A DNA stretch of 50,549 nucleotides from NCBI GenBank assembly GCA_937861115.1, contig CALMBD010000112.1:1-50549 (forward strand). The letters are read 5' to 3'. The position numbers and the translations under genes are program-made. This document shows, in pieces, positions 7,008 through 49,463 of the stretch; position 1 is the first letter of the stretch, and every line of letters starts with the position of its first letter. Below the pieces are notes generated by a model. It saw nothing but the letters and a program-made list of their open reading frames with translations, was not told the origin of the DNA and did no database searches. This stretch comes from an uncultured Bacteroidota bacterium. Lineage in GTDB: Bacteria > Bacteroidota > Bacteroidia > Chitinophagales > Saprospiraceae.

Positions 7008-7113
7008 AAAATGCCTTTTATCCCGGCAGCGATTCCGGGATTAATTTATTGTAAGCAGGCGACGGAAAAGTATTATTTGCTGTTCCTTTGCCCCCGGTTA
7101 ACAATTTTGCCGT

Positions 7114-8169: not shown

Positions 8170-8174
8170 ACGGC

Positions 8175-8804
8175 CTATCTGACCCGGTACACCTTTACGC
8201 GAAAGTGTCCGTCTTCTACGGGCGCCATGGGGCCTGCCCCGCTGAGCAGAAGCCCGGAGAAAGTGCCCGTAATGGTATCGTTCCGAAAACCGGTGATTTC
8301 GATATTGATATCGTTGCTCACGTCGTTCGATACGCCGGTGTAGTTCAGGGTATCGCGCGGGCTGAACTCTACCCCACCCCAGGCGAAGTTTTTCAACTGA
8401 AGCGTGGCGTAGGCAGGCGTGTAGGGAAAATCCCCGTTTTCCTCGTCAAATTCAAAGCCGAGTGCCATGCCAATGGTTGGCTGCACGGGATTGTCCTGCC
8501 GGATGATCTCTACATATTTTTTCTCCGGATCAAACCAGTTGCTGAGGGTGTCGAGTTTGGCGTTGTTGAAGTTATTCCGGGGCAGGTACCCGCCGGGACC
8601 GCGGCGCATGGGGTGCAGCAGCAACATCTCTCTTTGTTTAAACCGCAAATAGATGCCCGGGGTATCGGGGTCCTGAATGCCGGTTCCTGCCGGGCCGGCA
8701 TTCAGGGGCAGCAACAAAATAAATGGGAGGAATAAACCATACAGATCAGGAACAGCCCAAACTCTTCCGGCTTTCTTCCAGCATTTGAATGCGTTCCAGG
8801 CCAT
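8175..8804 (-). CDS. Small exported protein of unknown function overlapping valS
   Basis: About 209 residues from the ATG at 8804 (a further in-frame ATG is at 8825). Both starts lie inside the 3' end of valS in another frame, so the genes overlap by 59-80 bp. No in-frame ATG lies between valS's stop and the hydrophobic stretch. The overlap is therefore real unless a non-ATG codon is used. After a basic N-region comes a hydrophobic run 'LYGLFLPFILLLPLNAG', which looks like a signal peptide. The mature part is beta-rich and ends 'TITGTFSGLLLSGAGPM...VEDGHFRVKVYRVR'. This pattern of an 'xGTFSG' strand followed by a 'DGxF' strand is seen in small secreted Bacteroidota lipocalin-like proteins. 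No Cys lipobox is present. It is convergent with the EEP hydrolase gene (5 bp between stops). The function is unknown. Confidence 0.6.
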   Translation of the reverse strand: MAWNAFKCWKKAGRVWAVPDLYGLFLPFILLLPLNAGPAGTGIQDPDTPGIYLRFKQREMLLLHPMRRGPGGYLPRNNFNNAKLDTLSNWFDPEKKYVEIIRQDNPVQPTIGMALGFEFDEENGDFPYTPAYATLQLKNFAWGGVEFSPRDTLNYTGVSNDVSNDINIEITGFRNDTITGTFSGLLLSGAGPMAPVEDGHFRVKVYRVR

Positions 8805-27453: not shown

Positions 27454-28548
27454 CTACCCTCGCTCTCCGTAAACGGCCCACTGCGTCAACTTCCCGTCTT
27501 TGCCCAAAAAAAGCATAATGGAGGTATACACACGGATCTCCCCCGCAAGGGTTTCAATCGTACGCAAGGGCTTGCCGTAGGCCGTCTCGATTTCGGCGGC
27601 CGAAGCGCCGGATTTTAGTTTTTCAGCCGTAGTGCCGGTATATTCCGGGCCGGTGAGCAGGAAATAGGTCTGCAGACCGGAAGCGGTGTTGTCATTAAAG
27701 TAAAAGCGGCAATTTGCACCCGGGTGCAGGTTGTGGTAAAAATTGATCTGTGTATTCAAGCCAATCTCGCTTTCGGGATCTACTTCGGGAATATTGTACG
27801 GGTCGTCGAGGGTGATACCGTCGATTGATTCATCTTTGTTTATCCTGAACGGCGCATCCGGCTTCTCTTCCTTTTCTCCGTTCAGGATACTCAGGTTGCG
27901 CATTGCCAGGGCGCTACCCTGCCCTGCCGCCGTTTTGAAAGCAGCCTGCGCTTTTTCGTTTTCGCCGCTGCGGGCATACAGGATACCCTGCAGCACCAGG
28001 GCGTCTACGGTTGTTTTTTCATAACCGGATTTACCTGTCGCGGCAGCGGCAGCATTCCGCGCCTGTGCCGTGTCGCCCAACAAGGTGTACGCGCAGGCTT
28101 TATTGAGATAGGCAGGTGCGTAATCGGAGTCAAGCCGGATGGCCGCGTCGAAGTGCGATATGGCTTCCTTCAATTTTTTGTTCCGGACATCCTTTAAATC
28201 CATGACATCGCGTGTACCCACCGATTCGAGATCAAGTTCTACCGGATAGTGGAACCTGACTTCCGGTTCGGTGGGACGAAAATAGTGCAGGGCGTCGAGG
28301 ATAGCCACGATCCCGGCATTGTTGAATACCTGCCGGACAGGCATATCTTTCAAGGCATAAACAAAATAGGCATGGGCGTCCTCGTATTTGCCGATGGCCG
28401 TGAGCAGGTAAGCCGTTTCGAGTATTTCATTGGGTACAGATGCTGAGTCGCCCGCTATCGGCAGAATGGCATCGGGTGATTTTATGTCCCTCGCGGGAAG
28501 ATGCTGCATGCACAGCGGTGTGAAAAGAAGGCAGATAATGTATTTCAT
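27454..28548 (-). CDS. Exported tetratricopeptide-repeat protein with BamE-like C-terminal segment
   Basis: 364 residues from the ATG at 28548, which gives a signal peptide (MKYIICLLFTPLCMQHLPA); the frame upstream adds 16 residues of doubtful value. TPR-like helices occupy about 40-240 ('TAIGKYEDAHAYFVYALKDM', 'KLKEAISHFDAAIRLDSDYAPAYLNKACAYTLLGDTAQARNAA', 'LVLQGILYARSGENEKAQAAFKTAAGQG'). The last ~60 residues ('LKSGASAAEIETAYGKPLRTIETLAGEIRVYTSIMLFLGKDGKLTQWAVYG') look like a BamE/SmpA-type lipid-assembly fold, an inference from the GxP-x-W pattern. It lies 205 bp downstream of the WD40-caspase gene on the same strand with no terminator seen between, so cotranscription is possible. A partner role for the caspase is speculation. 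Confidence 0.7.
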   Translation of the reverse strand: MKYIICLLFTPLCMQHLPARDIKSPDAILPIAGDSASVPNEILETAYLLTAIGKYEDAHAYFVYALKDMPVRQVFNNAGIVAILDALHYFRPTEPEVRFHYPVELDLESVGTRDVMDLKDVRNKKLKEAISHFDAAIRLDSDYAPAYLNKACAYTLLGDTAQARNAAAAATGKSGYEKTTVDALVLQGILYARSGENEKAQAAFKTAAGQGSALAMRNLSILNGEKEEKPDAPFRINKDESIDGITLDDPYNIPEVDPESEIGLNTQINFYHNLHPGANCRFYFNDNTASGLQTYFLLTGPEYTGTTAEKLKSGASAAEIETAYGKPLRTIETLAGEIRVYTSIMLFLGKDGKLTQWAVYGERG

Positions 28549-28753
28549 TTTGGTTGGAATTTTGATTGAATGTTGCTTGTATCTATCTGTAATCAAACCA
28601 GGGTGGCTTGTATGGACAATTTTGACTTAAACTGAAGTTTCAGACAGGATAAATAAGGCAAATTCGCCGGAATAACCTGAAAATTCTGCACATCCTTGTC
28701 AAAAACAATAACGACTGTCAGTTTTGCAATATGGCGGATTTGCGAAAAAACGC

Positions 28754-31700
28754 TCATTTAATCATCCCCGACGCCTTCCCCACAATCGCTTCCGCCAGCG
28801 CGGGCACCGCGTCCTTTTTTCCCGTTACCTGAAAATCGCCTTTGGGTTCTTTTCCCTTGAATAAACGAATATCCACCACCACATCATCGCCCGTCACGGT
28901 ATAGCGCCCATTCATCTTCCAGGCGTTTTCGTATGCATCGACATCAACAAATATCAGTTCGGCTTTTGCACCTTTGGCCGTAATACGTCGAAGCTGGTCG
29001 CTCAGTGCAGTATTCAGGCCCAAAACGTCGTCGAAAGCATTTACATCCTGAAACCCGTTGCGGATAAACACCGGCTTCACCTGCGATACCGGAATCTTTA
29101 CCCCTGCGTCGACGATGGCAATATCGAAACTGGCGCCGGTGGCCGGAAATGCCAGTACGGGCGTCTGGATTCCACCGATGCCTTTGGCCAGTTCCGGCAC
29201 CTTGTCGCGGGCGTACTGGAAGAGGGTCATGACGTCTACCCGTTTGTCTTCTGTAAGTGCCAGTCCGCTCATGCCCTGCAGTAAGGTGTAGGTGAGCAAC
29301 CCCTGACCAAACTCGCTGGCCTCGTAACTCACCTTGTCCGCCGCACTGCCGGTCAGGATAAACATGCCGGTGCGGTCTTTCATTCGGTCGAGCGCGCGCA
29401 CCTGCGACGAACTGAGGTCTTTCCGGCCGGCGGCCACATCCTGCACCAGTTTGCCGGAATTGCAGGCATCGAGCACCAGCACCTGCTTGAGGGCCGCGAT
29501 GGATTTGACCCAATCCGTGAATTCGGTTGAAGAGACGGCATAGTTCTGCCGGATTTCGGGATCGCTGAGGTTTTCACTGGCAATATCCTTGGTCAGGTAA
29601 TAGAACTGGGAGTTCTCTGCAGTGCCGTAGTTGACGCCGTGTCCGGAACAGTATACGAGCAGGACATCCTGCGATTCCGCCTCGCCTGCAATGTCTTCAA
29701 AGGCCTTTTGAATGTTTGCTTTACTCGAAACATCCTGCCGGGTAGCATCCTGATCGTCGGTATTGAGGAGGGTGACGTACACCCGGTCGCCAAACACCCT
29801 GGGTGCGGCAGCACGAATCGCCTGGCTGATGCTGGTGGCGTCGCGGTCGGCAAACTGCAGATCGAGTTTGTCGCCGGCGTAGTTGGCGGTGCCAACGACA
29901 ACCGCGTATAACGCCGGTTTTTTGCGTGTCGCCGGTCCGGTTTTTGGGGGGCCGGCAGGTGGGAAATACTCCAGTTCCAGCGCCTGGCTTTTGAGCCAGC
30001 CCGCGCTGTTGTATACACGCAAGGCCAGTTTATTGGACTGCCCGGGCAGACAATAGCGGGAGTATCCGTTAAGATCAATGCCCAGGGAGGAAACGCGTTG
30101 CGGGTTGGCGTCATCCAGCACTTCCTTGTCGTTGATAAAAACACTGAGTTTTCCGATGCCGCCGCTACGGGGGATCAGGTCGACCTGCAACCGGGAACCT
30201 TTCAGTTGTGCCTTCATTTCCGGATAAAGCGCAACGGTTTTAAAGGCTTCTACCGAGCGAGCGGGGTCCTGGTTTTGGCCGGTTTCCTTGGACAACAAGC
30301 CGGGTTCGTAATAACGCTCTTTGAGTTGCTCCAGTTCGACCACCTCCAGGCCAACGACAAAATGCATCATGTTCATAGCTCCGGGCGAGGCATCGAAAAG
30401 ACCCGAAGGCGTAGTTACTACCCAGTCATTGGAATCGATAGCCATCAGCGTGGCGATCTCCTTGCCGCCGGAGGCCTGCCAGAGTCTGGCGGTATTGTCC
30501 AGGCTTCCGGTGAGCACGAACTTGCCGTCGGGCGAAAAGGCCGCGCCGTATACTTCTTTCGCATGCCCGGAAAAGGTTTGTTGGACGCGCCCGTCCAGCG
30601 TCCATAATTTTGCCGTATGATCATAACCGCCGGTCAGCACCTGTTTGCCATCGGGCGAAAAGGACACCGAACTGATTCCTTTCCCATGCCCGGTGAAGGT
30701 TTGAAGGAGTTGGCCGTCAAGCCCCCACATCTTGGCTGTTTTGTCGTTGCTGCCGGTCAGAATTTTTGTTCCGTCAGGCGAAAAGGCAACCGAAGTCACC
30801 CAGTTGTCGTGGCCGGTAAAGGTTTGTACGGTCTGACCATCGGCATCCCACAACTTCGCTTCCATCCCGCTACCGGTCAGTACCTGTTTGCCGTCGGGCG
30901 AAAAAGCCACGGCAGTTATGATGGATTCATCGTCAGTAAAAGTTGTTATTTCTTGCCCGCTCTGATTCAATAGTTTTGCTTCGGTTCCGCTTCCGACAAG
31001 GATTTGATTGCTTCCATTTGTGGTCAAAAAGGCCACAGAATTGACCGCACCGGGGTTCTCGATGCTCAGCGGTTTTTTGCCTTTGGCGTCCCATAGTTTT
31101 GCGGTATAGTCTTTACTGCCAGTCAGAACCTTGTTTCCGTCGGGAGAAATGGCCACCGAGGTCACCCAGTCGGTATGGCCATAATAGACCCGGACATCCA
31201 CTCCGGTGAGGCTCCACAGGTTAGCCGAGCCATCGACGTTGCCCGTCAGAATTTGTTTGCTGCCGTTTGCGGATGAAATTGCCACGGCGCAAATCCCTTT
31301 GGCATGTCCTTCAAAAGTCTGGATGACGCGGCCATCCAGACTCCACAGTCGCGCAGTGCCGTCCTTGCTGCCGGTCAGCACATATTTTCCATCGGGTGAA
31401 AAGGCTACCGTGACCCGTGTCGGTGTATTGGGTGGGCCGTTAAAGGTTTGAACAAGTTGGCCGTCAGGTTTCCACAATTTTGCCTTCTGGTCGTGGCTGC
31501 CGGTCAGGATAAAGTTTCCGTCGGGCGAGAACACGGCCATATTGACCTGGTCCGTGTGGCCGGTAAAAGTCTGGACCATGCGACCGTCAAGGCTCCACAA
31601 TTCTGCCGTATTGTCGTCGCTGGCAGTGAGCACCTGTTTGCCATCGGGTGAAAACACCGCCGATTTGACTTTGCCCTTGTGGCCCGAAAAAGTTTGGACA

Positions 31701-32260
31701 ACTGTTCCGTTCAGGCTCCATATTTTGGCAGTACCGTCTTTGCTGCTGGTCAATATTTGCTGTCCGTCGGGTGAAAAAGCGACCGTATTGATGTCTTTTT
31801 CGTGCCCCTTAAAGGTCTGGATTTCGCGCCCGTCGAGATTCCACAACCTGGCGTCGTTGTCCCGCCCTCCCGTCAGCACCTGTTTGCCGTCGGGTGAAAA
31901 GACAACCGATTCGATATATTTTTTATGCCCTGAAAAGGTCCGGAGTATCTTCCCGCTGATATCCCATAATATAGCCGTACCGTCCATGCTGCCGGTAAAC
32001 ACCTGTTTGCCGTCTGGCGAAAAAGTCACTGAGCTGACACCATCGGTATGTCCGGTAAGGGTCAGGATTTCGTGTCCTTTGGTGTCCCAGAGTTTGGCAG
32101 TGTTATCGGTGCTGCCTGTCAGTATGTATTTGCCGTCCGGCGAATAGGCAATAGACTCTATACCCCCGGTATGTCCTACGGGAGCAATCAACCGGGGTGT
32201 CTGGGAGAAAATATTGCCTGTCATAAAGGCAAATAAAAGAGGAAGGGCTGTTTTCTTCAT
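28754..32260 (-). CDS. Exported WD40 (14 blades)-caspase protein
   Basis: 1168 residues from the ATG at 32260 (signal peptide MKKTALPLLFAFMTGNIFSQ); the open frame upstream of it is unlikely to be translated. Fourteen WD40 repeats (about 22-605, each ~41 residues, 'GHxxxVxSVxFSPDGKxxLTGSxDxTAKLWxxDGxxxQT') make two seven-bladed propellers. A linker typical of such proteins follows ('SNDWVVTTPSGLFDASPGAMNMMHFVVG'). A C14 caspase/metacaspase domain (about 780-1040) starts 'KKPALYAVVVGTANYAGDKLDLQFADRDA' and has the catalytic dyad His874 (YCSGHG) and Cys933 (LDACNSG). A ~125-residue C-terminal domain of unknown type ends the protein. It should be a periplasmic or surface caspase-like protease, with propellers for target binding. 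It is divergent from the HTCS gene. Confidence 0.92.
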   Translation of the reverse strand: MKKTALPLLFAFMTGNIFSQTPRLIAPVGHTGGIESIAYSPDGKYILTGSTDNTAKLWDTKGHEILTLTGHTDGVSSVTFSPDGKQVFTGSMDGTAILWDISGKILRTFSGHKKYIESVVFSPDGKQVLTGGRDNDARLWNLDGREIQTFKGHEKDINTVAFSPDGQQILTSSKDGTAKIWSLNGTVVQTFSGHKGKVKSAVFSPDGKQVLTASDDNTAELWSLDGRMVQTFTGHTDQVNMAVFSPDGNFILTGSHDQKAKLWKPDGQLVQTFNGPPNTPTRVTVAFSPDGKYVLTGSKDGTARLWSLDGRVIQTFEGHAKGICAVAISSANGSKQILTGNVDGSANLWSLTGVDVRVYYGHTDWVTSVAISPDGNKVLTGSKDYTAKLWDAKGKKPLSIENPGAVNSVAFLTTNGSNQILVGSGTEAKLLNQSGQEITTFTDDESIITAVAFSPDGKQVLTGSGMEAKLWDADGQTVQTFTGHDNWVTSVAFSPDGTKILTGSNDKTAKMWGLDGQLLQTFTGHGKGISSVSFSPDGKQVLTGGYDHTAKLWTLDGRVQQTFSGHAKEVYGAAFSPDGKFVLTGSLDNTARLWQASGGKEIATLMAIDSNDWVVTTPSGLFDASPGAMNMMHFVVGLEVVELEQLKERYYEPGLLSKETGQNQDPARSVEAFKTVALYPEMKAQLKGSRLQVDLIPRSGGIGKLSVFINDKEVLDDANPQRVSSLGIDLNGYSRYCLPGQSNKLALRVYNSAGWLKSQALELEYFPPAGPPKTGPATRKKPALYAVVVGTANYAGDKLDLQFADRDATSISQAIRAAAPRVFGDRVYVTLLNTDDQDATRQDVSSKANIQKAFEDIAGEAESQDVLLVYCSGHGVNYGTAENSQFYYLTKDIASENLSDPEIRQNYAVSSTEFTDWVKSIAALKQVLVLDACNSGKLVQDVAAGRKDLSSSQVRALDRMKDRTGMFILTGSAADKVSYEASEFGQGLLTYTLLQGMSGLALTEDKRVDVMTLFQYARDKVPELAKGIGGIQTPVLAFPATGASFDIAIVDAGVKIPVSQVKPVFIRNGFQDVNAFDDVLGLNTALSDQLRRITAKGAKAELIFVDVDAYENAWKMNGRYTVTGDDVVVDIRLFKGKEPKGDFQVTGKKDAVPALAEAIVGKASGMIK

Positions 32261-32391
32261 AAATTTGCGCTGTTGAGGGGAAGCACTTGGCGTGGTTATT
32301 TTTACGCTGATATTGTTGGTTTGGTCTTTTATAGAAGGCCCAACTTTACGTCGAAAATAGGTGAAACCGCTAATTATCTCCCATATTTTAC

Positions 32392-32399
32392 TACATTTG
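32392..32399 (+). promoter_or_regulatory. -7 box of the HTCS gene
   Basis: TACATTTG is an exact TAnnTTTG match in the 160-bp region between the divergent WD40-caspase and HTCS genes. It gives a leader of about 15-25 nt. No TTTG lies at the 21-nt distance. No equally good box is seen for the WD40-caspase gene on the other strand. Confidence 0.45.
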
Positions 32400-32420
32400 A
32401 TTTGAGTTGCAATTTTGAGG

Positions 32421-35400
32421 ATGACTAAAATGGAGCAGTTTAGCAACAGGTTTGCACCGGCAAACAGGTGGCGGGAAAGCGTATTCATTGCTTGTACAGC
32501 GATACTATTGCTGCCCCTTGTTCTTACTGCGCAGTTTTCGGGAGGTTCGGCTTTTTTTTCACACCTCACCACAGAAAACGGGTTGTCCAATTCGCGTGTC
32601 CGAACCTTTCTTCAGGACAGCACGGGTTTTATCTGGATCGGCACTGAGGGCGGTCTGAACCGGTATGACGCCTGTAATTTTTCAGTTTTCAAGCAATCTC
32701 CCGGCAATACGTTCAGCATCAACAACAACTCCATTCCAGCCATTTTGGAAGACCGGCGAAAAAACTTCTGGGTCGGCTCAAAGGAGGGGCTGCAATTGAT
32801 GGATCGGGATAAAAATATCTTTTTCCCGGGTCGAACCGACAATGAGAATCCGTTGAAAGATATTGGCGCTGTGCTGAGTTTGTATGAAGACAGTCGCGGC
32901 AACATTTGGGTCGGCACAACGGCAGGTTTATTCCGGCTTGACATCCGGGCAACAGAAGCGTTTTCGAAAAAATCCCTTCAAAATGCTCTTAAGGAGGGCC
33001 AATTGCAGGTTACGCATTTTAGTCGGGAGGCAGCAGAAGGGATGAAGTTGAGTCACAACCAGGTTTGGAGCATCACGGAAGACCACAAAGGCAAAATCTG
33101 GATTGGTACGGGACGGGGATTAAACATACTTGACCCGGCGACCGGCACGCTGCAACAATGGCTGAACAACGACGACTCACTCGAAGCGGCAACCATCAAC
33201 ACCCTGGTGGCGGACCGTGCCGGTTTTTTATGGGTGGGAACGGCAAACGGGCTTTACCGGATAAAACCGGACCGGCGCACGACAGCAGTATTCAGGGCAA
33301 GTGTCGGACACCCCAATGGCCTGAGCAACAATTTCATTACGAAAATTGTACAGGACCGGCAGGGGAATATCTGGATCGGGTCTGATGGCGGCGGCCTGGA
33401 TCTCTGGCGACCGGAGACCGGAACATTTATCCATCACCGCCACGACCCCAGCAACCCTGGAAGCCTGAGCGACAACAATATTGAAGCCTTGTATGCTGAC
33501 AGGAACGGCGGACTTTGGGTAGGCAGCCACAAAGGCATCAGTTACCTCAATAAATACAGAAAGCCGTTCCATTACTACCGGAACACAGGCGTGCGCAACG
33601 CCCTCACCCCAGGTACCGTTACTTGTTTTTGGGAAAGGCCGGACGGCAAAATCTGGATCGGGATCGACGACGGCGGCATGGACCTGTTCGACAGACATAC
33701 CGGTGTTTTCACACATTTCAGACACCTGCCCGGCAACTCGCAAAGTATTTGCAATGACGACGTTGTGGCCATATGCGAAGACCGGCGCGGGGAGGTGTGG
33801 ATCGGCACCTGGAGCGGCGGCCTGTCCCGGCTCACCCCCCGGGGCGCCGGAGGTGTTTATACGCATTATTGTCCGGACGGGCGTCCCGGAAGCATCGGTG
33901 ACAACGATATCTGGACTTTTTTTGAAGACGGCAGAGGGACGATCTGGATCGGTACTGTCGATGACGGACTGAATCGATACGACCGGGCAACCGATACATT
34001 CCGGTCTTTCAGGTGGAAGTCGAACAACCAGAGCAGTCTATTCCGGAACTGGGTGTTTGATATTTGTGAGGACCCGAAGGGCAATATCTGGATTGCAACG
34101 GCAGATGGTATTAGCCGGCTCGATCAGGAGACCGGTGAGTTTGTCGCCTACCCCGTTCCGGGGCAGGGAAAGATGGATCGCGTTTATGTAATCTTGCCCA
34201 ATCCTTCAGGCGGTTTTTGGCTGGGTACCGACAATGGCCTGCTGGCCGTTGATCCTGAAAGGCAGACAACCAAAAAATGGCAGGAACAGGACGGGCTGGC
34301 AGACAATCTGGTGAACAGCATTCTGGAAGACGGTCGCGGCAACCTTTGGCTGGGTACCGGAAAAGGTATTTCTGTATTCAACCCCGGGACAGGATTGTTT
34401 CGAAATTTCGATGCCCGTGACGGCCTGCAAAGCGGCGGTTTTTCCGGCGCCTGCCTGAAATCCGCTTCGGGGGTGTTCTTTTTTGGCGGGATCAACGGGT
34501 TCAATGTCTTTCATCCAGATAGTATTCGGGATAACCCCGTCGTCCCACGCGTCGTGATTACGGATTTCATGTTGTACGGTAAATCAGTGCCCGTTCAAGG
34601 CACTGTTGGCGATACCCTTTCATTTGATTCGCCGCTGCACAGTCAAATATTCAATCTGACCGAAATTACGCTTCCATATTGGCAAAACGACCTCTCCTTC
34701 GAGTTTTCAGCCCTGAATTACCTGAGCCCCGAAAAAAATCAGTTCAGGTACCAACTGGAAGGCTATGCGGACCAGTGGATCACGGCCGAACCCGGTCGAA
34801 ATTTTGCCAACTATACCGGATTGGACCCCGGCACCTATACTTTCAGGGTAACTGGCTCCAACAACGACGGTGTTTGGGATGAAAAAGGCGCCACCCTTCG
34901 CATCACTATTACCCCACCCTGGTGGAAAACCTGGTGGGCCTATTCTTTGTTTTCCGTGGCGATCAGCGCCTTACTCTACTTCTCCGTACGTTATGAACTC
35001 CGTCGCCAGCAGTTGAAACACGCCCTGGAAATGGAACACCTGGAAGCGGAGCAACTGAAAGAACTGGATAAAACCAAGTCCCGCCTGTACGCCAACATTA
35101 CCCATGAATTCCGAACCCCTTTGACCGTCATACTCGGCATGACGGAACAACTGGACAAGGAAGTTCGCAAACTGGAGGACCCGCAGTCGCAAAAATCCGC
35201 GCCAGATGTCGAATGCCTCCATGCCACCACTGCCCTCATCCACCGCAACGGCAGCCAGCTCCTGACCCTGGTCAACCAAATGCTCGACCTCTCCAAACTG
35301 GAATCGAACCGGATGGAAATACACAATATCCAGGGTGATATTGTTGCGTATGTGAAGTATATCACCGAGTCTTTTCATTCGCTGGCAGAGGCAAAAGACC

Positions 35401-36689
35401 TGAGCATAAGGGTATGCAGTACACCGGAATCGATTACCATGGATTATGACCCTTCCAAAATCATGCATATCGTTTCCAATTTGTTGTCCAATGCTATCAA
35501 GTTCACGATGCCGGGCGGAGAAATCGCCGTTCAACTTTCGGAAGAGCAGGCAACTAACGATGGTGAAAAGTATGCCGTACTGGTCGTCAGCGATACGGGT
35601 GTCGGTATTGCGGCTGATCAGTTGCCGCATATTTTTGACCGCTTCTATCAGGCGCCGGCAGCGTCCAGGTTAAAAGAAGGAGCGTTGCCGCCAACCGGTT
35701 CGGGTATCGGGTTGGCATTGGTCCGGGAACTGGTCAAATTGTTCAACGGCCGGGTTGACGTGGAAAGCGCAGCTGGCGAAGGGACGCGTTTTACTGTCCG
35801 GTTGCCGATCCACCGCGATGCGCCGGCAGGAACAAGCACAACGACCCCGATGTCTCCGGATTTGATCAAACAACGGCCAGGCCATATTACCGGATTCAGC
35901 AGGAAAGACGCGGCGCCGGCCAGCGAAGACCTGCCATTGCTCCTGGTTATTGAAGACAATCCGGATGTAATGACCTTCCTGATCAGTTGCCTGGAAGATC
36001 ATTACCGTATTGAAACGGCAATCAACGGACGGGTTGGCGTCGAAAAAGGGCTTGAACTGGTTCCCGATATCATCATCAGCGATGTGATGATGCCCGAAAT
36101 GGACGGTTTTGAAGTGTGCGATACACTCAAAAAGGATTCGCGCACCAGCCATATCCCTATTGTTATGCTGACAGCCCGGGCAACCGTGGAGGACCATATT
36201 GCGGGTATGAAGCGCGGCGCCGACGCGTATATGGCCAAACCCTTTCATCAGGGAGAACTCACTGTTCAATTGGAAAACTTGCTCGAATCGCGTCGACGCC
36301 TGCAGGAGCGATATAGAAGCCTGGACATCTCCGTAGAAGAGGCCAGTCTGCGTGACAAAGCGGAGGATGCCTTTTTGATAAAACTGCGCGGTTTCATCGA
36401 AGCCGAGATCAATGACGCCGATCTCTCCATTGATGATCTTTGCCGTAAAATGGCCATGAGCCGGATGCAACTCCACCGCAAGATCAAGGCGCTAACAGAC
36501 CGTTCCACTGCCCTCTATATCCGGAGCATTCGATTGCAACATGCGCGCCACTTGCTGACAACGTCTGATATCAATGTTTCGGAAGCAGCCTACCAGGTGG
36601 GCTTCGACGACCCCAAGTATTTCAGCAGGGTTTTTATCGAGGAATTCGGTGTGGCGCCCAGCGAAATGAAATCGAATCCGGCAAAATAA
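32421..36689 (+). CDS. Hybrid two-component system (HTCS): sensor propellers, kinase, receiver and AraC regulator in one protein
   Basis: About 1422 residues (ATG at 32421; ATG at 32430 is also possible). Domain order: signal/anchor; about 14 two-component regulator propeller blades (to ~residue 700, 'IWIGTxxGLNRYD' pattern); a Y_Y_Y domain (about 750-830); a transmembrane helix ('WWAYSLFSVAISALLYFSV'); a HisKA domain with phospho-acceptor His in 'NITHEFRTPLTVI' (~residue 895); a HATPase ('SDTGVGIAADQLPHIFDRFYQ', 'GSGIGLALVRELV'); a receiver with 'IISDVMMPEMDGF' and 'MLTARA'; and a C-terminal AraC-type HTH ('LSIDDLCRKMAMSRMQLHRKIKALT...VGFDDPKYFSRVFIEEFGVAPSEM'). It senses a periplasmic ligand and directly controls transcription. 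Most HTCS flank polysaccharide loci; here the neighbours are proteases. Confidence 0.95.
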   Translation: MTKMEQFSNRFAPANRWRESVFIACTAILLLPLVLTAQFSGGSAFFSHLTTENGLSNSRVRTFLQDSTGFIWIGTEGGLNRYDACNFSVFKQSPGNTFSINNNSIPAILEDRRKNFWVGSKEGLQLMDRDKNIFFPGRTDNENPLKDIGAVLSLYEDSRGNIWVGTTAGLFRLDIRATEAFSKKSLQNALKEGQLQVTHFSREAAEGMKLSHNQVWSITEDHKGKIWIGTGRGLNILDPATGTLQQWLNNDDSLEAATINTLVADRAGFLWVGTANGLYRIKPDRRTTAVFRASVGHPNGLSNNFITKIVQDRQGNIWIGSDGGGLDLWRPETGTFIHHRHDPSNPGSLSDNNIEALYADRNGGLWVGSHKGISYLNKYRKPFHYYRNTGVRNALTPGTVTCFWERPDGKIWIGIDDGGMDLFDRHTGVFTHFRHLPGNSQSICNDDVVAICEDRRGEVWIGTWSGGLSRLTPRGAGGVYTHYCPDGRPGSIGDNDIWTFFEDGRGTIWIGTVDDGLNRYDRATDTFRSFRWKSNNQSSLFRNWVFDICEDPKGNIWIATADGISRLDQETGEFVAYPVPGQGKMDRVYVILPNPSGGFWLGTDNGLLAVDPERQTTKKWQEQDGLADNLVNSILEDGRGNLWLGTGKGISVFNPGTGLFRNFDARDGLQSGGFSGACLKSASGVFFFGGINGFNVFHPDSIRDNPVVPRVVITDFMLYGKSVPVQGTVGDTLSFDSPLHSQIFNLTEITLPYWQNDLSFEFSALNYLSPEKNQFRYQLEGYADQWITAEPGRNFANYTGLDPGTYTFRVTGSNNDGVWDEKGATLRITITPPWWKTWWAYSLFSVAISALLYFSVRYELRRQQLKHALEMEHLEAEQLKELDKTKSRLYANITHEFRTPLTVILGMTEQLDKEVRKLEDPQSQKSAPDVECLHATTALIHRNGSQLLTLVNQMLDLSKLESNRMEIHNIQGDIVAYVKYITESFHSLAEAKDLSIRVCSTPESITMDYDPSKIMHIVSNLLSNAIKFTMPGGEIAVQLSEEQATNDGEKYAVLVVSDTGVGIAADQLPHIFDRFYQAPAASRLKEGALPPTGSGIGLALVRELVKLFNGRVDVESAAGEGTRFTVRLPIHRDAPAGTSTTTPMSPDLIKQRPGHITGFSRKDAAPASEDLPLLLVIEDNPDVMTFLISCLEDHYRIETAINGRVGVEKGLELVPDIIISDVMMPEMDGFEVCDTLKKDSRTSHIPIVMLTARATVEDHIAGMKRGADAYMAKPFHQGELTVQLENLLESRRRLQERYRSLDISVEEASLRDKAEDAFLIKLRGFIEAEINDADLSIDDLCRKMAMSRMQLHRKIKALTDRSTALYIRSIRLQHARHLLTTSDINVSEAAYQVGFDDPKYFSRVFIEEFGVAPSEMKSNPAK

Positions 36690-36715
36690 TTCCCCGCGCT
36701 TATTGAGAATGCCCT

Positions 36716-36793
36716 TTGTAACACGTCTGTTACAATAGTCCACCTTTTTGATACAATAGTGGGAAGGTCGTTACACACCGGGCCGCACCTTTG
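36716..36793 (+). promoter_or_regulatory. Putative HTCS operator and promoter of the C1-caspase operon
   Basis: Three direct half-sites G(T/A)TACA begin at 36729, 36750 and 36770, i.e. 21 and 20 bp apart (about two helical turns). The first two share 10 of 11 bases (GTTACAATAGT/GATACAATAGT). The first half-site is also the right arm of a dyad TTGTAAC-6-GTTACAA (36716-36735). CACCTTTG at 36786-36793 is one base off the TAnnTTTG box and has no -33 element. A weak promoter with phased upstream repeats would suit an AraC-type activator such as the adjacent HTCS; this is an inference. Confidence 0.5.
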
Positions 36794-36856
36794 TGTCTAT
36801 CACGCTCCGTTACTTCTGCTTTTTTAGGGTATTCACATTGAACAAACCGTATCAAT

Positions 36857-38605
36857 ATGAACAGACGCTGTATGAAACGTCCGCTTTTGTCCTGGTTATT
36901 GTGCGTGATGATTGGTCAGGTACTACCGGCCCAGGAGTATAATACCGGCCTGATTCTCGACGAGGAAGGATTTGAACGGGAGGTAGAAATGACTCCCGGA
37001 TTTTCAAACGATGGCCGCAGGGCCGGCGACATGCCGTTGAAGGCAAGCCTGCGTCCCTATTGCCCCATTCCAAAAAATCAGGGGGAGATCAGTTCCTGTA
37101 TCGGTTGGGCCATGGGTTACGGGGCCCTTACCATCAGCCATGCTTACCGGGAAGGCAATACCGACCGGGAAGCTATAACTAAAAAGGCCTTCTCCGCGCT
37201 GTATTTGTATAACCAGTCGAAAATGGGCAATTGCATGGACGGCGCCAACATTCAACTGACGGCTAAAATCCTCAAAGACAAGGGTGATTGCCCCAGCAAA
37301 GCATTTGACTCGCCTCTGGCCGACTGTGATCGGGAACCGAGTGCAACGCTGATCGAGGAATCGCGTGAAAATGCCATCAAGGACTATATCGCCCTCTTCA
37401 CCAACAGATCGTTGCCACGGGAAAAAGTAGTCCGAACCAAAAGAAGTCTTGCCGAAGGCAAACCCGTCGTCATCGGCATGAAAATAAAGGAAAGTCTGAA
37501 GAACCTTACCGGAGAAACCACGGTATGGAAACCCGGGGATGATTCGGATAAACCTATGGGCGGTCACGCGCTGGTGGTCGTGGGGTATGATGATTCATCG
37601 GGCGAGTTTGACATCATGAACAGTTGGGGACCCAACTGGGGCGACAATGGTTTTTTTCAGATGAAATACCCTGATTACGCCAGCAATGTAGCCCAGGGTC
37701 TGCAACTTATTTTGCCTGAAGAAAACCTGACGCCGGATCAGATCGCCGCCCTGAAGGCCCAATACCAGAAGGCGGACGGGATCAAAAAGGCGGCCGAAGT
37801 AAAGCAGGAAGAGGCTGCCCGCCAAAAAGCAATTGCCGCCGAAGCGCTAAAAAATGCAGAATCAACCAATGCCGAACAGAATATCAAAGCGGCACAGATG
37901 CAACTGGAGCAGGCGACCAAACAGGAACAGGCCGCACTGGAACAGCAAAAACAGGCTGAAGAGATTATTGCAGAGGCATCTGATCGTATCGTCGCCCTGT
38001 ATGGCGAGTTTTTGGTGCGCATGCCCGAGACGGATGAATACGGCACCCTGCTCACCAATGCGCAAGGGGAGCAGAAATTCATAGACCTGCACCCCACCTG
38101 GAATGGTCGCTATTACACCCTCGATAAAACAGACTGGCAAGAAGGTGACGGCTTCCAGGTTATCGCCCGGAACATCAAAAAAGATCGCTACGTCTACCTT
38201 TTCAGTTTTGACAGTGATAATAAACTCGAGGTACACTGGCCCCGAAGCCTGCGTGCTGAATTCATGGGCGAGCCCGTTACCAGTGGCGCCGAAAGCGCAC
38301 TCGTTGCACACAAGGGCGCCGAAATCATCATACCTGACAACAATGGGGTGCTCACCCGCGAGAACCTTTACGACGACAACATCTGTGTCCTGTACGCTTT
38401 CGACAAAATTACAGACATCAAGGAACGGCTGGGCAAGTTGAGTAAATTATCCGGGCCCTTTGAAAATCGACTCCAGCAGGCTTTCGGTGATCTGTTTATC
38501 CCGCAAAACCTGATAGACTACGGACAAGACCAAATGATCTGTAAAACAACGACAACAGGACAAGGATCGGTCATTCCGATTCACGTGAAGATCCAGAACC
38601 AATAA
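36857..38605 (+). CDS. Exported papain-like (C1) cysteine protease with C-terminal DUF4384 domain
   Basis: 582 residues with a signal peptide (ending VLPAQ; ATG at 36872 is an alternative start). A C1 papain-like domain (about 60-290) has the oxyanion Gln75 ('PKNQGEISSC'), catalytic Cys81, His237 ('MGGHALVVVGYDD') and Asn255 ('NSWGPNWGDNGFFQM'), so the triad is complete. A ~90-residue Ala/Gln/Glu-rich coiled coil (about 295-385) follows. A DUF4384-type beta domain (about 395-525, 'WQEGDGFQVIARNIKKDRYVYLFSFDSDNKLEVHWP', 'KGAEIIIPDNNGVL') ends the known regions. No propeptide is evident. DUF4384 is often fused to caspase domains in Bacteroidota; here it is on a papain-like protease, 33 bp upstream of a caspase gene. 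The two are probably one operon acting outside the inner membrane. Confidence 0.88.
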   Translation: MNRRCMKRPLLSWLLCVMIGQVLPAQEYNTGLILDEEGFEREVEMTPGFSNDGRRAGDMPLKASLRPYCPIPKNQGEISSCIGWAMGYGALTISHAYREGNTDREAITKKAFSALYLYNQSKMGNCMDGANIQLTAKILKDKGDCPSKAFDSPLADCDREPSATLIEESRENAIKDYIALFTNRSLPREKVVRTKRSLAEGKPVVIGMKIKESLKNLTGETTVWKPGDDSDKPMGGHALVVVGYDDSSGEFDIMNSWGPNWGDNGFFQMKYPDYASNVAQGLQLILPEENLTPDQIAALKAQYQKADGIKKAAEVKQEEAARQKAIAAEALKNAESTNAEQNIKAAQMQLEQATKQEQAALEQQKQAEEIIAEASDRIVALYGEFLVRMPETDEYGTLLTNAQGEQKFIDLHPTWNGRYYTLDKTDWQEGDGFQVIARNIKKDRYVYLFSFDSDNKLEVHWPRSLRAEFMGEPVTSGAESALVAHKGAEIIIPDNNGVLTRENLYDDNICVLYAFDKITDIKERLGKLSKLSGPFENRLQQAFGDLFIPQNLIDYGQDQMICKTTTTGQGSVIPIHVKIQNQ

Positions 38606-38638
38606 CAATCGCATCGTCCGGCAATTTTCAAATAAAGA

Positions 38639-41422
38639 ATGATGAAAAAGATACTGGTCCTTTTGTGCATTATTCCTGTTTTGGCGCATGGGCAGACCAA
38701 AGAGGCGCCAAACGTAACATGGAAACATATTTACGGCGGAAAAAAATCGGAAGCCGCACACTGTGTGATCTCCAACTACGTGGGGCAAATACTCGTGGCC
38801 GGGGAAACGAATTCTCCGCCAGCCCAAAAAACAGACGGCTTTCTTATGCTGCTTGGCCCCAAGGGCGATACCATATTTCAAAAAATGTACGGTGGGGCCG
38901 GCGACGATGTCATCGAAGCCATGGTGCAAACCTACGACGGCAATTTTGTGCTCGCCGGTAATACCACGTCATTCGGGAACGGCCAGGCAGATGCCTGGAT
39001 ATTAAAGGTAAACGAACTGGGCGATACACTCTGGCAAAGGGCCCTCGGCAGCAGCGGCAACGACGAATTCCGGGATATCATCCAGACCTCCGACGGTCAC
39101 CTGGTGGCGGTTGGCTCTACTTCCGCCAATGGCCGGGAAGATACCTGGGTATATAAGATGTACGACGACGGCGGATTGATCTGGCAACAGACCTTCGGCA
39201 ACAGAGGGCTGGACAAAGCCACGGGTATTGCAGAAGGAAAGGACGGCAATTACGGTATAACAGGTATTACCTCCTCCGGAAAAGGCAGTCGCAACATCTG
39301 GCTTTTTGTGCTGAACAAAGAAGGCAAACCCCAGTACCACCAACTATTCGGCTCCCGCCAGTACGACGAGGTATTCAGTATCGTGGCAACTACCGACGGC
39401 GGTTACGCGCTTGCAGGTTATGCCAAAACGGTTTCGGAAAACCAGGGATCGGGCCTGAAGGACATGTGGGTGATCAAAACCGACTACGACGCGCAGGAAA
39501 TATGGTCGAAGACTTATGGCGGCAAAAGCAATGAAGGCGCGTTCGATATGGTGGAAACGCCGGATGGCGGTTTGGTATTGGCAGGATATACGTACTCCCA
39601 TGTCATGGGCGCCAACACGCCCAAAGCCATGCTCATTAAGGTGCAAGGCCAGACCGGGAAATTAATTTGGGAACAAAAGCCGGAATTCGGCGGTACCGGA
39701 ACGGATGAACTTCATGCCCTGGTGCTTATGCCCGATGGCAGTCTCGTGCTCGCGGGTCAGACGGACTCCAAGCAGGAGGGTGCGAAAAGCCAGGATATCT
39801 GGGTCATCCGCCTCGACCCGGAGTATATCCCGACGACGACACTGGAAACGAATGTTGTGGTGAAGGACATACAGATCAAAGGCATCAAAAACGGTGTGCT
39901 GACGGAACACGACGATGCCTACCTGCTTTTTACGCTTGAAAACAGCGGCACCCAGGATGCCTATGCCATAGACATTGCCCTGCAGGACAAAGCGGGTGTT
40001 CCGGGCTTTAGTTTTCCCAAAGTTGTCAGAGCCGGGTTTCTCGGCATCGGCCAATCCAAAAAATTCAACCTTCCCCTCCGGGCAAAAAAAGTGGAGAAGG
40101 TGGCAACAGCCCGTCTGGAGATACAGTATTCCGACGAAAGCCGCAGCCGTGGAAAATCGGATGAAATACCCGTAACGATTCAACCGGCTGTGGTGCCTTC
40201 CAACTTTCTCCAGATCGAGTGGGTAAACCCCGGGCGTGAGGAATTTCCTGCAGGAAGGAAGGACGTGAAAATGGAGAAGGTGAGCATAAAGGTGCTTGCA
40301 AGAAGCGATAAGCCCCTGAAACCCAGCGACTTCACTGTTTACCTGAACAATAAACCCTATAACGTAGGCCAGAAATCAGGTGAAGCAGGATTGCGACCCA
40401 AAAACAACCAGCAAGACGCCAGTGGCATGTACCTGTATAACTATACCCGCCTGATTACGGTTGGTTTGGGAACAAACGAACTTGAGGTAGTTGTGGCCAA
40501 CGACGCAAAAAAAGAAAGCACGGGGAAGTTTACCATCGTGTACAATGACAAGCCTAATCTGCACGTCATTTCCCTCGGCATTCAACACGATGATCTGCTG
40601 TTCACCACCAAGGACGCTCAGGACTTTGCCGCCAGTTTTCAAAAACAGGATGGCGCTGTGTTCGACAAGGTGTACATGCGCACACTCATCAGCGGCGACA
40701 GTACCAGGGCGGGTCAGATTCAGACCGACGGCGATATTATCAAACAGGCCTTTGCCGACCTGAAGGAAAAATACAATTATACCATTTACGAGCGCGACTT
40801 CCTGGTGCTGTTTATTTCCTCGCACGGCAGGAGTGTCAACAATTCATTCAAAATCGTACCCACCGACTTTGTGATGGTGGGTGAAAAGGCGCTGATCGAC
40901 TTCCAGAGCGATGTCATCGAGCAGATCGACAAGATCACCTGCAACAAGTTGATTTTCATAGACGCCTGCCAAAGCGGCACCATTGGCGTTGCCGGCGGTA
41001 CAGCAGCGGCAAGCAGCCTCAGTCCGGAAGACCTGGCCAAGGAACAGGCCAAAGAAAAAGCCCGGCTGCAGGCGCAGGCCAAGACCATTGTGGCGGAGAG
41101 CAACAAAGCGGCCACGACAAGCACCCTCGCTTCCTGCGACGCCAACGAATCTTCCTGGGAGGACAAGGAATGGGGCAACGGCGCTTTCACCAGGGCCATC
41201 CTAGGCGCCTTTCACAACGAAGAATTCAAGGACGATGGCGGCCCTTTCCGTCCGAGTGCCGATGATGACGTGATTACCCTTGGCGAACTGGTTGCGTATA
41301 TCGATCGCAGGGTCCCGCAAATGATCAAGGACGCCGGGAAAAACGGAACCCAGCACCCCTTCATCTCCCAGGAGCAGTTATTAAAAGTGAAAGACATTCC
41401 ACTTTTCAAGATAAACCAATAG
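38639..41422 (+). CDS. Exported caspase protein with N-terminal seven-bladed propeller
   Basis: 927 residues with a signal peptide (MMKKILVLLCIIPVLAHGQT; ATG at 38642 is equivalent). Seven blades (about 25-400) of the pattern 'xxYGGxxxDExxxxxxTxDGGxxLAGxTxSxGxxxxDxWxxKxxxxGxxxW' form a propeller like those in other secreted Bacteroidota proteins. Two Ig-like domains follow (about 410-640). A C14 caspase domain begins 'PNLHVISLGIQHDDLLFTTKDAQDFAASF' and has catalytic His729 (FISSHGR) and Cys777 (IDACQSG). A long Ala-rich insertion between the Cys strand and 'STLASCDANESSWED' could be a processing linker. It is the second gene of the operon with the C1-DUF4384 protease. Substrates are unknown; Arg/Lys specificity would fit the metacaspase group. 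Confidence 0.9.
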   Translation: MMKKILVLLCIIPVLAHGQTKEAPNVTWKHIYGGKKSEAAHCVISNYVGQILVAGETNSPPAQKTDGFLMLLGPKGDTIFQKMYGGAGDDVIEAMVQTYDGNFVLAGNTTSFGNGQADAWILKVNELGDTLWQRALGSSGNDEFRDIIQTSDGHLVAVGSTSANGREDTWVYKMYDDGGLIWQQTFGNRGLDKATGIAEGKDGNYGITGITSSGKGSRNIWLFVLNKEGKPQYHQLFGSRQYDEVFSIVATTDGGYALAGYAKTVSENQGSGLKDMWVIKTDYDAQEIWSKTYGGKSNEGAFDMVETPDGGLVLAGYTYSHVMGANTPKAMLIKVQGQTGKLIWEQKPEFGGTGTDELHALVLMPDGSLVLAGQTDSKQEGAKSQDIWVIRLDPEYIPTTTLETNVVVKDIQIKGIKNGVLTEHDDAYLLFTLENSGTQDAYAIDIALQDKAGVPGFSFPKVVRAGFLGIGQSKKFNLPLRAKKVEKVATARLEIQYSDESRSRGKSDEIPVTIQPAVVPSNFLQIEWVNPGREEFPAGRKDVKMEKVSIKVLARSDKPLKPSDFTVYLNNKPYNVGQKSGEAGLRPKNNQQDASGMYLYNYTRLITVGLGTNELEVVVANDAKKESTGKFTIVYNDKPNLHVISLGIQHDDLLFTTKDAQDFAASFQKQDGAVFDKVYMRTLISGDSTRAGQIQTDGDIIKQAFADLKEKYNYTIYERDFLVLFISSHGRSVNNSFKIVPTDFVMVGEKALIDFQSDVIEQIDKITCNKLIFIDACQSGTIGVAGGTAAASSLSPEDLAKEQAKEKARLQAQAKTIVAESNKAATTSTLASCDANESSWEDKEWGNGAFTRAILGAFHNEEFKDDGGPFRPSADDDVITLGELVAYIDRRVPQMIKDAGKNGTQHPFISQEQLLKVKDIPLFKINQ

Positions 41423-41588
41423 CAGACAATGTACCCGATGCAACGAATATCCAAATGAATGCAACCAATTGACACAGCGGATGAGCCCGTCTGCGCTCAT
41501 CTTGCGCTGTGTAATTGCCCGGTAGACAGGAAACCAAATGAAAGCCAGGCACAAAAACCGGTTTGCGTTCACTTTAAATGTCAAGATC

Positions 41589-44500
41589 ATGATGAAACGA
41601 AAAACGAGTGTGCCTTCATTATTCCTGGTTACTGCATTGATGTTTATCGGCGCCAGCCAATGGAGCCAACTGCTGGCGATAGACTGGATTGTTACCAATG
41701 TGAATGATTCGGGCGCCGGTTCTCTTCGGAGTGCGATCAATTTCGCAAACGGGTCAGCCAACGGCTCCAATATCATTTTTGCGATACCCGGTAGCGGTCC
41801 GCACACCATCACCCTGATCACCCCGCTTCCCATCATACTTCAATCCCAGACGGTCATCGATGGCTCGACACAACCGGGCATCGAGATCGTGCCGGCGGGA
41901 ACAATGGCCAGCGGCATACGCATCCAGGCCGAATCCTGCACGGTCAAGGGGCTGCGCATTAGCGGTTTTGATGTGGGCATAACCATATTCGGCGACATCT
42001 GCAGCACCCTGATCGAGGATTGCATCATCGACCACAACCTGAAAAAGGGCATCGACTCCGGATCGGCCACCAATACACAATTCCGGAGAAACACGATGTA
42101 TTGCAATGGCGCAGCCCCGGGAGGAGACCCTGTGCTGCCTTCTTCCAACGCTCAACAGCCACCGTCGATTACGAGTGCGACAGCGACTACCATTTCCGGT
42201 ACGGCAACCTATAAACCGCCGGCGCCGGGCGTAGATAACGTTGTGGAAGTGTTTATTGCCGGTGACACGTCGTGTCAAACCGTCGGCGTACAGGGCAAAA
42301 CCTACCTTGACCAGGCCATCGTTAATCCCGACGGCACCTGGTCCATCTCGGGTAACTTCCCAACCGGAGTACCGCTCACGGCAACCGTTACCAACCCGGC
42401 CCCATGCCCTATTCCCTGCCTGTTGTATGCGGATTTCGGCTATAGTATTCTCACTGGCACAACCGTTCAGTTCACCGATATGACAGTGGGTGGCACGCCG
42501 ACTTCCTGGCAATGGGATTTTGGCGACGGTACGACCTTCAATGGAAAGTTTCCGCCCGTACATGTATACGATGATTATATTTCCTACCACGTTACCCTCA
42601 CGGTTTCGTTGATCGACGCGAATGGCGAAGTTTGTCAAAGTGTGGCTGAGATAGACATTGATCTCAACTGCCCGCTGATGCCCGAATTCGAGTCCTATCC
42701 TGATTTGGATTATTACGACCTCATTTATTTTAAGGATCTATCGTCGGGTAGCCCGGATACCTGGTCGTGGGACTTTGACGATCCGGCCAGCGGTCCGGAC
42801 AACTATTCCAATGAAGCAGAGCCTTATCATATATTCTCATCTCCCGGCACATATAATGTCTGCCTTGACATATCAGTGCTGATCAACGGCGTATCGTGTG
42901 AGGACTATATTTGCCAGGATGTAGTGGTTGAAGATCCTTGTGAAACGTTGGTGCCAGACTTTATAGCAACACCGATTGGCGGGCATTGTGTGGTAGATTT
43001 CGAAGATAATTCACTTGGCGGTCCGACTGCCTGGTTCTGGGATTTTGGTGTGCAAGGTATCTCCAGTGATACCAGCACACTTCAAAACCCTTCGTATGCT
43101 TTTCCCGGGTTTTCAGCCCATTATGTTTGTCTCACTGTTTATACTGATGCGCCATATCCATATTGCGAAAAGACTACCTGTCAATGGGTCAATCCTTATT
43201 GTGATACTTATATCACTGATAATGATTCCATCGCTACGCCATCCGGCAGTAAAGCGGCTTCTGCATACCTCCCTCCTGCCAATGCTGTGACGTCGGATTT
43301 CTCACCTGTGTTCTGCATCGGTGTTGCCGATACTACGTCTGTCAGTATTTGCGAAAACGAAACTTATCCGTTTTATGGTAACCTTTTAAACAGCTCCGGC
43401 ACCTATGACACGGTATTCGTCGCGGCAAACGGTTGCGACAGCACAATTGTGCTCATACTGACGATCAACCCGCTGCCTGTGGTCGATCTTGCCGGCGACC
43501 TGGATATTTGCTCGGGACAAACCACCCTGCTTACTGCTTCCGGCGGCGTAAGCTACCTGTGGAATACTCTGGAATCCACCACAAGTATCACTGTTGGCTC
43601 CGCCGGTATTTACAGTTTTGTTGCCACCGATATCAATGGATGCACAAACAGTATCTCTGCTACTGTAACAGTTATTAATACACCGACAGCAGATGCACCG
43701 GCAGATGTGGTGACCTGCGACAGTTATACGCTGCCCTCCCTCGGAGTAGGCAACTATTTTACCGGTTCAGGCGGTACAGGCTTTCCTCTGAATGCCGGTG
43801 ATGCGATCACCAGTACACAAACTATCTATGTGTTTGCGGAATCAGGAACAACACCCAATTGCACGGACGAAAACAGTTTTACCGTTACCATAAACGCTAC
43901 GCCAACGGCTGATGCACCGGCAGATGTGGCGGCCTGCGACAGTTATACATTGCCTGTGCTTGGCGTGGGGAATTACTTTACGGGTCCAGGCGGTACAGGT
44001 TCGGCATTAAATGCAGGTGATGCAATTACCAGCACACAAACCATTTATGTGTATGCGGAGACCGGTACAACGCCCAATTGTACAGACGAAAATAGTTTTA
44101 AAGTAACCATTAACGCTACGCCAACGGCTGATGCGCCTGCAGATGTAGAGATTTGCGATAGTTACATCCTCCCAGCCCTTGGCACAGGCAACTATTTCAC
44201 AGGTCCGGGTGGTACAGGTTCAGCGTTAAATGCCGGTGATGCGATCACCAGTACACAAACTATCTATGTGTTTGCGGAATCGGGAACAACACCCAATTGC
44301 ACGGACGAAAACAGTTTTACCGTTACCATAAACGCTACGCCAACGGCTGATGCACCGGCAGATGTGGCGGCCTGCGACAGTTATACATTGCCTGTGCTTG
44401 GCGTGGGGAATTACTTTACGGGTCCAGGCGGTACAGGTTCGGCATTAAATGCCGGTGACGCGATCACCAGCACGCAAACTCTCTATGTGTATGCGGAGAC

Positions 44501-49427: not shown

Positions 49428-49463
49428 TTGAACCTCCTTCCAACCATTTTCTCCACCAGAAAA

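Follow-up and report, generated by a model that had tools for sequence, protein, structure and literature searches.

The pairing of a papain-like C1 protease gene (C1) with a caspase gene is the strongest result of this work, and its frequent recurrence in related bacteria makes it look like a real conserved system of the Bacteroidota. The window, i.e. the whole stretch of DNA analyzed here (50,549 nucleotides from an uncultured member of the Saprospiraceae), contains two conserved exported-caspase units placed head to head: in one of them C1 is followed by a caspase with a propeller (Casp2), and in the other a WD40 beta-propeller caspase (WD40-caspase) is followed by a TPR protein. An HTCS regulator and a candidate operator ahead of C1 complete the arrangement and suggest that the first unit may be under sensor control.

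Organization of the locus

A preliminary description of this DNA placed a WD40-caspase, an HTCS, C1 and a second caspase within positions 28754..41422. The four genes were recovered at those positions, with Pfam and ORF coordinates in agreement, but the borders turned out to be too narrow, as a conserved TPR gene, which had been missed, and a giant type-B protein with its PorP neighbour lie outside them (Table 1). Further upstream, the window encodes a CotH-kinase-like protein (25069-26100) and, at 23143-24735, a protein that carries a T9SS type-A sorting tail and weakly matches reprolysin-like metallopeptidases.

Table 1. Features of the locus. Residue numbers of the HTCS count from the TTG at 32415.
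Feature	Position	Strand	Basis and remarks
TPR protein, probably exported (by eye)	27454..28596	(-)	Pfam TPR; downstream partner of WD40-caspase
Weak match (two mismatches) to the repeat preceding C1, ahead of the TPR gene; tentative	28704..28731	(+)	
Exported WD40 beta-propeller caspase, H874/C933	28754..32260	(-)	Probable ATG at 32260; ORF open to 32590
HTCS	32430..36689	(+)	Probable ATG at 32430; Reg_prop propeller, Y_Y_Y, HisKA H897, HATPase_c, Response_reg D1223, AraC HTH
Direct repeat TACAATA-N14-TACAATA, 21-bp period; putative operator	36731..36758	(+)	98 bp upstream of the annotated C1 start
Exported papain-like protease C1, C81/H237/N255, with coiled coil and DUF4384-like C-terminal domain	36857..38605	(+)	Pfam Peptidase_C1, model
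Casp2: exported propeller, two beta-rich domains, caspase H729/C777	38639..41422	(+)	Pfam Peptidase_C14, DUF5122; 33 bp after C1
Giant protein, T9SS type-B sorting domain	41538..49427	(+)	TIGR04131, 37.9 bits, cut-off 35; same position in G022
PorP/SprF-family outer-membrane protein	49428..50417	(+)	PF11751, TIGR03519

Two genomes of the same genus, G022 and G030, carry the closest relatives of the locus. In G022 the gene order is that of the window, with the WD40-caspase and TPR genes running in one direction and the HTCS, C1, Casp2, giant and PorP genes in the other; identities to the window proteins are 59% for TPR, 73% for WD40-caspase, about 67-68% for the HTCS, 73% for C1, 77% for Casp2 and 80% for PorP, while the giant protein is found in two pieces (43 and 71%). 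A second WD40-caspase lies past the PorP gene of G022 (L042:5363-7790); it consists of two ORFs and is possibly a broken gene. G030 has kept the TPR, WD40-caspase, C1 and Casp2 genes, the last one up to the contig end, but the HTCS is missing from between them. We therefore discarded the idea of one fixed four-gene cassette, since in G030 the WD40-caspase, C1 and Casp2 occur without an HTCS between them.

Conservation of the C1-caspase pair

The window C1 had matches in 29 of 60 relatives searched, and an order-wide search with a C1 profile (A1, E<=1e-15) matched at least 130 of 298. This profile was built mostly from caspase-bearing loci, so its top matches are biased to that kind; among its listed matches of at least 300 bits, neighbourhoods were obtained for 42 of 46 (window included), with at most four candidates per genome scored. 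Neighbourhoods were fetched for the better C1 matches and for a control set with a shorter match to the profile, and a C1 tree was built. The control clade, comprising 22 loci, was delimited on the tree afterwards; the other 61 loci form a grade on this midpoint-rooted tree. Of 20 loci fetched as controls by the shorter profile match, 19 fell inside the control clade and one, L114, outside it.

A same-strand caspase was present within three ORFs downstream of C1 in 40 of the 52 loci with room, meaning at least 3.5 kb of downstream sequence (nine of the 61 had less and are excluded, among them L043, which is paired), and in 34 of the 40 it was the immediately following gene. When both sides were considered the count rose to 43/52. 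Conversely, none of the 20 control-clade loci with room had a caspase downstream, and only one had it on either side (L120, other strand). The 12 loci without a caspase within three ORFs downstream include L114, where one lies one ORF upstream. The 40 paired loci span 34 genomes and 15 genera; as the 61 loci include several from one genome as well as close relatives, the 52 cannot be taken as independent events. In a less selected set, made of the C1 relatives from the 60-genome search, 15 of 22 loci with room were paired, and three of the seven unpaired ones belonged to the control clade. Genes were called as stop-to-stop ORFs of at least 110 aa with home-made HMMs, a procedure that missed, and so did not count, the known C1 of G020 (L045), which is masked by an overlapping ORF and has a TPR hybrid kinase after it.

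The association was also detected from the side of the caspase: among the best 23 caspase-region matches of a Casp2 profile (at least 297 bits, window included), 18 had a C1 match alongside; of the others, that of G254 was cut by the contig end and L090-L093 had no C1 in the fetched stretch. A phylum-wide search of 395 genomes (E<=1e-50) found C1 in 19, 13 of them outside the order, where a caspase lay within three ORFs of C1 in 9 of 13 loci from 12 genomes, six downstream and three upstream (the count disregards a 22-bit match in L141, and the matching genome G523 lies outside the fetched set). The expectation that the association would recur in unrelated genera was thus borne out for C1 and its caspase; the two units adjoin each other in only three genomes of one genus. 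In L135, one of the loci outside the order, four caspase genes in tandem come after a single C1 gene.

The partner caspases fall into two types: in 24 pairs they are Casp2-like and in 17 they are not, several of the latter being WD40-like. In L062 and L067, C1 is followed by a separate DUF4384 protein (above the cut-off in L062, similar by eye in L067) and then by a propeller caspase, so that the function of DUF4384 may be split or duplicated there. In L097 an FGE-sulfatase-domain protein (7071-8438) follows a C1 without a caspase. In the window, the 33-bp gap between C1 and Casp2 indicates that both genes probably belong to one transcript.

Active sites, domains and export of the proteases

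The catalytic residues proposed earlier for the three proteases are correct and intact, as judged from alignments and, for the WD40-caspase, from a start at 32260, with which its dyad is H874/C933. C1 has a PF00112 domain with the Gln/Cys/His/Asn set of the papain family: Q75, C81 and H237 were found in 29 of 29 C1 sequences (window included) and N255 in 27, the remaining two having Ser. Likewise, PF00656 with a His/Cys dyad assigns the caspases to C14; in an alignment of 24 rows the His is present in 23 and the Cys in 22, and the gaps correspond to sequences ended by the contig or the fetch limit. In the WD40-caspase PF00656 places the caspase domain at window 29150-29908, and Pfam gives WD40 repeats. 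D775 of Casp2, two residues ahead of the catalytic Cys, was invariant in 10/10 sequences; an Asp at this site is typical of narrow Arg/Lys-specific enzymes. Orthocaspases have specificity for positively charged residues (PMC6426788), and D775 would fit a specificity of that type.

The label of a C1-DUF4384 fusion has to be weakened, because the DUF4384 match of C1 scored 14.9 bits, below the Pfam cut-off of 27. The structural model (pLDDT 87) comprises the papain domain, a coiled coil (293-378) and a beta domain (381-582), and the C-terminal domain is better called DUF4384-like, predicted to stand behind a long coiled coil. The best PDB match of this model was xylellain (3ois; Foldseek E 3.6e-15, TM 0.77 by target), a bacterial papain-like protease from which C1 differs by its coiled coil, DUF4384-like domain and caspase partner. 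For Casp2 the model was of moderate quality (pLDDT 75, pTM 0.55), with a propeller, two beta-rich domains and the caspase region; its fold matches, among those listed, were mostly propellers and none was a caspase.

Signal peptides had been assigned to all three proteases, and reading by eye supports them, with a Gln following each: PAQ in C1, HGQ in Casp2 and FSQ in the WD40-caspase, as well as TAQ in the HTCS. A Gln after the signal peptide is the Bacteroidetes Q-rule of Sec/signal-peptidase-I exports (PMC5837995, PMC10653852). No T9SS type A or B sorting domain was found on C1 or Casp2 with Pfam and NCBIfam, nor on the WD40-caspase with NCBIfam and among the 25 of 60 Pfam families listed for it. 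The Sec-type signal peptides together with the lack of a sorting domain make C1 and Casp2 most likely periplasmic, and the WD40-caspase, having no reported sorting domain, would be placed in the periplasm as well.

T9SS type-B and PorP neighbours

The adjoining type-B giant (TIGR04131) and PorP/SprF-family protein of the window are not a peculiarity of this contig. According to our home-made HMMs, a type-B protein and/or a PorP lies within four ORFs of C1 in 19 of the 24 Casp2-type pairs, L041 and L043 being scored without them only because the stretch or the contig ends, and in 0/19 control loci. Among the 17 pairs with other caspases, PorP was found in one and a type-B protein in one; since these pairs mostly lack such neighbours, T9SS substrates cannot be what the system targets in every case. 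PorP-like proteins have been reported as binding partners of type-B proteins, and the window arrangement resembles SprB/SprF and PG1035/PorP, in which a type-B CTD protein adjoins a PorP/SprF-family protein (PMC9143113); the two genes of the window differ in coming after two exported cysteine proteases.

The HTCS and other regulators of the pair

HTCS regulators normally control polysaccharide utilization loci (PULs). The window HTCS has the same domain set, a Reg_prop/Y_Y_Y sensor, HisKA, HATPase, receiver and AraC HTH in one chain, with the His and the Asp present, but it stands beside caspases. As had been noted before, there is no SusC/SusD or glycoside hydrolase among the window proteins scanned (eight plus five with Pfam, the giant with NCBIfam only), and its membership in an HTCS-controlled PUL was rejected on this basis.

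Among 11 genomes searched, orthologues of the HTCS were found in G022 and G030 (55% in the latter), the next match by score having 39% identity. In G030 the orthologue is on a separate contig, where it follows, on the same strand and at a distance of about 150-180 bp, a different WD40-caspase, 41% identical to that of the window. HTCS orthologues are, accordingly, not always beside glycan loci. Of three lower-scoring HTCS paralogues inspected, that in L157 has a SusC-like plug protein and SusD as neighbours, that in L156 a TonB-dependent receptor and that in L155 a protein containing an alpha-amylase domain. That the HTCS, unlike these paralogues, stays with a WD40-caspase implies that it goes with caspases, a conclusion drawn from three genomes of one genus, and in view of the neighbours of the relocated gene the idea that it is unrelated to them was rejected. 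The proposal that HTCS and proteases form one system holds in part: the adjacency of HTCS and WD40-caspase survives relocation, but in G030 the C1-caspase locus lacks the HTCS. The proteolytic cascade outside the inner membrane that the preliminary description had proposed, with zymogen activation, surface-protein turnover or a death/defence response as examples, stays hypothetical. The AraC HTH is more conserved than the propeller, being 86 and 76% identical in G022 and G030, with 79 and 71% for the receiver and 67 and 50% for the propeller; the HTHs of four other HTCSs are 41-57% identical to that of the window.

In some other lineages the pair is accompanied by other regulators. A same-strand regulator within two ORFs upstream of C1 was found in 12 of 44 loci with 4 kb on both sides versus 0/19 controls; 32 of the 44 had none there. 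Nine of the 12 combined an ECF-type sigma factor with a TPR membrane protein (domains assigned by Pfam in one example), loci that are related on the tree and hence stand for few events, and three were kinase/receiver loci, namely L041, which is the G022 HTCS, and L100 and L110, with a TPR histidine kinase and a LuxR-type regulator. Extending the search to four ORFs on both sides gave 16/44 versus 2/19 controls. A TPR histidine kinase/LuxR-type pair lies just downstream in L068, and L084 has a Reg_prop/Y_Y_Y histidine kinase after the caspase.

These data bear on a nutritional role for the locus, in which the HTCS, with a peptide or glycoprotein signal instead of a glycan ligand, would switch on periplasmic peptide-digesting proteases, as a PUL analogue for protein. 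The nutrient-type neighbourhoods of the three paralogues and the apparent export of the proteases agree with such a role, but the locus has no SusC/SusD among the proteins scanned, the invariant D775 points to a narrow enzyme and the pair is found beside quite different regulators or none; we regard this role as unlikely.

A conserved direct repeat upstream of C1

The TACAATA repeat is the element that would connect the HTCS with C1. Exact copies in the seven genomes searched were four: one before C1 in each of the window genome, G022 and G030, and one about 70 bp past the relocated HTCS of G030. The 28-bp repeat before C1 is identical in G022 and has one base different in G030, while the flanks have diverged. 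With one mismatch allowed the seven genomes gave 16 matches versus 12 for the reversed control (not split by mismatch), so the one-mismatch matches are background. An extended repeat with up to two mismatches was found six times in 42 genus genomes, always in the same three, and 0 times in 42 for the reversed control, the pattern having been derived from the same four sites that the search then recovered. The three genomes are those with close C1 orthologues (the C1 search covered 37 of the 42), and all of them carry an HTCS orthologue. The G030 copy after the HTCS may be a relic, because only a methyltransferase follows, about 310 bp on.

The two extra G030 copies, with two mismatches, are not beside proteases: one precedes, by about 60 bp, the probable start of a protein that is probably exported and has no Pfam family (L192:55-1158), a possible further target, and the other has no clear target at the site. 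The match at window 28704, ahead of the TPR gene, is suggestive only; two or more matches occurred in 0/100 shuffles. That the repeat is an HTCS terminator was rejected, as it is kept before C1 in G030 without a preceding HTCS and its four copies are predicted to fold differently. The region upstream of C1 was also aligned in five more distant relatives in search of a footprint, but the alignment was too poor for reading.

Direct repeats with a period near 21 bp are used by AraC-family dimers and by LytTR regulators alike. We infer that the repeat belongs to the HTCS, an assignment favoured by the copy adjoining the G030 HTCS, and the comparison of the three genomes gives genomic support to a putative sensor control. 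Alternatively, the C1-caspase pair would be real, with the HTCS merely inserted nearby and the repeat belonging to another regulator. The absence of the HTCS from the G030 pair locus, the fit of such repeats to LytTR regulators and the fact that the link is informed by three genomes would agree with this alternative; however, the confinement of the extended repeat to the 3 of 42 genomes with close C1 orthologues, the presence in all three of an HTCS orthologue, with no other close one among the 11 genomes searched, and the exact copy beside the G030 HTCS make it improbable.

The WD40-caspase and its TPR partner

The second unit is also conserved. In 13 of 19 loci with downstream sequence the WD40-caspase, or the last one in arrays, has a TPR-protein relative behind it; this tally, made by eye, includes a weak, truncated example (L159) and two with one intervening ORF (L164, L174), and leaves out L160, L168, L169 and L170 (contig ends) and L176 (unclear). 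The partner is lacking in L042, L153, L161, L171, L173 and L175. In a genus search of 41 genomes, WD40-caspase relatives were present in 17, several as tandem arrays. Arrays of at least three genes were seen in G021:C23 (L166, L167), G017:C523 (L165) and G010:C96 (L176), with the TPR partner following two of them (L165, L167).

A role in envelope death or defence, where the caspases would be executioners released once the sensor detects an attack on the envelope, is suggested by the caspase fold and by the partial match of the WD40-caspase to the PADLOC 'caspase' model, its match to HEAT-ARM_XIII through the repeats and its match to the EACC1-associated caspase NF047832, which at 71 bits is below the cut-off of 140, so that membership of that family was rejected. 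In addition, a NACHT-EAD11 protein (L161:6460-8937) lies directly after two tandem WD40-caspases. Against this role, the proteins look exported, no NTPase adjoins them in the window, PADLOC gave no match to Casp2 at E<=0.01, and no pore-former or nuclease was recognized among the scanned neighbours, so that we consider it quite improbable. A chance neighbourhood of common gene families is very improbable as far as the two pairs are concerned, although the two units, adjoining in three genomes, may have come together in this way: caspases are many in the window genome (8 PF00656 matches, in a list missing Casp2) and WD40-caspases are multi-copy in the genus, but the 40/52 versus 0/20 of the C1-caspase pair, its recurrence outside the order and the WD40-caspase-TPR counts speak against it.

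Comparison with described systems

In agreement with the preliminary description, which knew of no system of this composition, no description of such a composition was found among the open-licence PMC papers searched. One near likeness is provided by the prokaryotic caspase homologues (metacaspases and orthocaspases), whose genes lie in predicted operons with sensor, sigma-70 and proteolysis domains, 23 operons having other proteolysis domains, with 28 metacaspases in Haliscomenobacter (PMC3501461). The word papain does not occur in the main text of that study, and no HTCS or T9SS genes are named in the sections used here; a C1 neighbour may nevertheless be among the 23 operons. Caspase-linked conflict systems also join a caspase-family peptidase to a second gene, an alpha/beta-hydrolase or, in a two-gene system, a membrane protein, but most of them are NTPase-centred and no papain-caspase pair appears in the relevant sections (PMC7159879). 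Nor is such a pair described in the corresponding parts of PMC10380794 and PMC4933709.

A model for the locus and its implications

We tentatively favour a reading, quite possibly the right one, in which the window contains two head-to-head exported-caspase units, with the HTCS acting on the C1 promoter, C1 and Casp2 forming a periplasmic two-protease module, and the type-B protein and PorP as its likeliest targets. The HTCS would sense a ligand in the periplasm and its AraC domain would act on the repeat before C1, altering the expression of C1 and Casp2; it might perhaps also act, on weaker grounds, on the shared WD40-caspase promoter. C1 and Casp2 would work in one periplasmic pathway, either with one setting the activity of the other or with both acting sequentially on the same targets, which in this branch, judging from synteny, would most likely be the neighbouring envelope and surface proteins.

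A wider proposal, conceivable but somewhat unlikely in its full form, is that the Bacteroidota possess a family of exported papain-caspase switches with interchangeable sensors (HTCS, TPR-histidine kinase/LuxR-type or ECF-type sigma/TPR membrane protein), the activity of one protease being licensed by its partner; those of the Saprospiraceae branch would mature, release or turn over T9SS type-B surface adhesins, constituting a signal-gated envelope protease cascade.

To our knowledge, little is established about the roles of caspases in bacteria. The locus offers a small set of genes for functional tests: a conserved caspase that looks exported, its papain-type partner, a regulator and a putative operator. 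Furthermore, if the link to T9SS is true, type-B surface proteins would seem to undergo a proteolytic step that is itself regulated.
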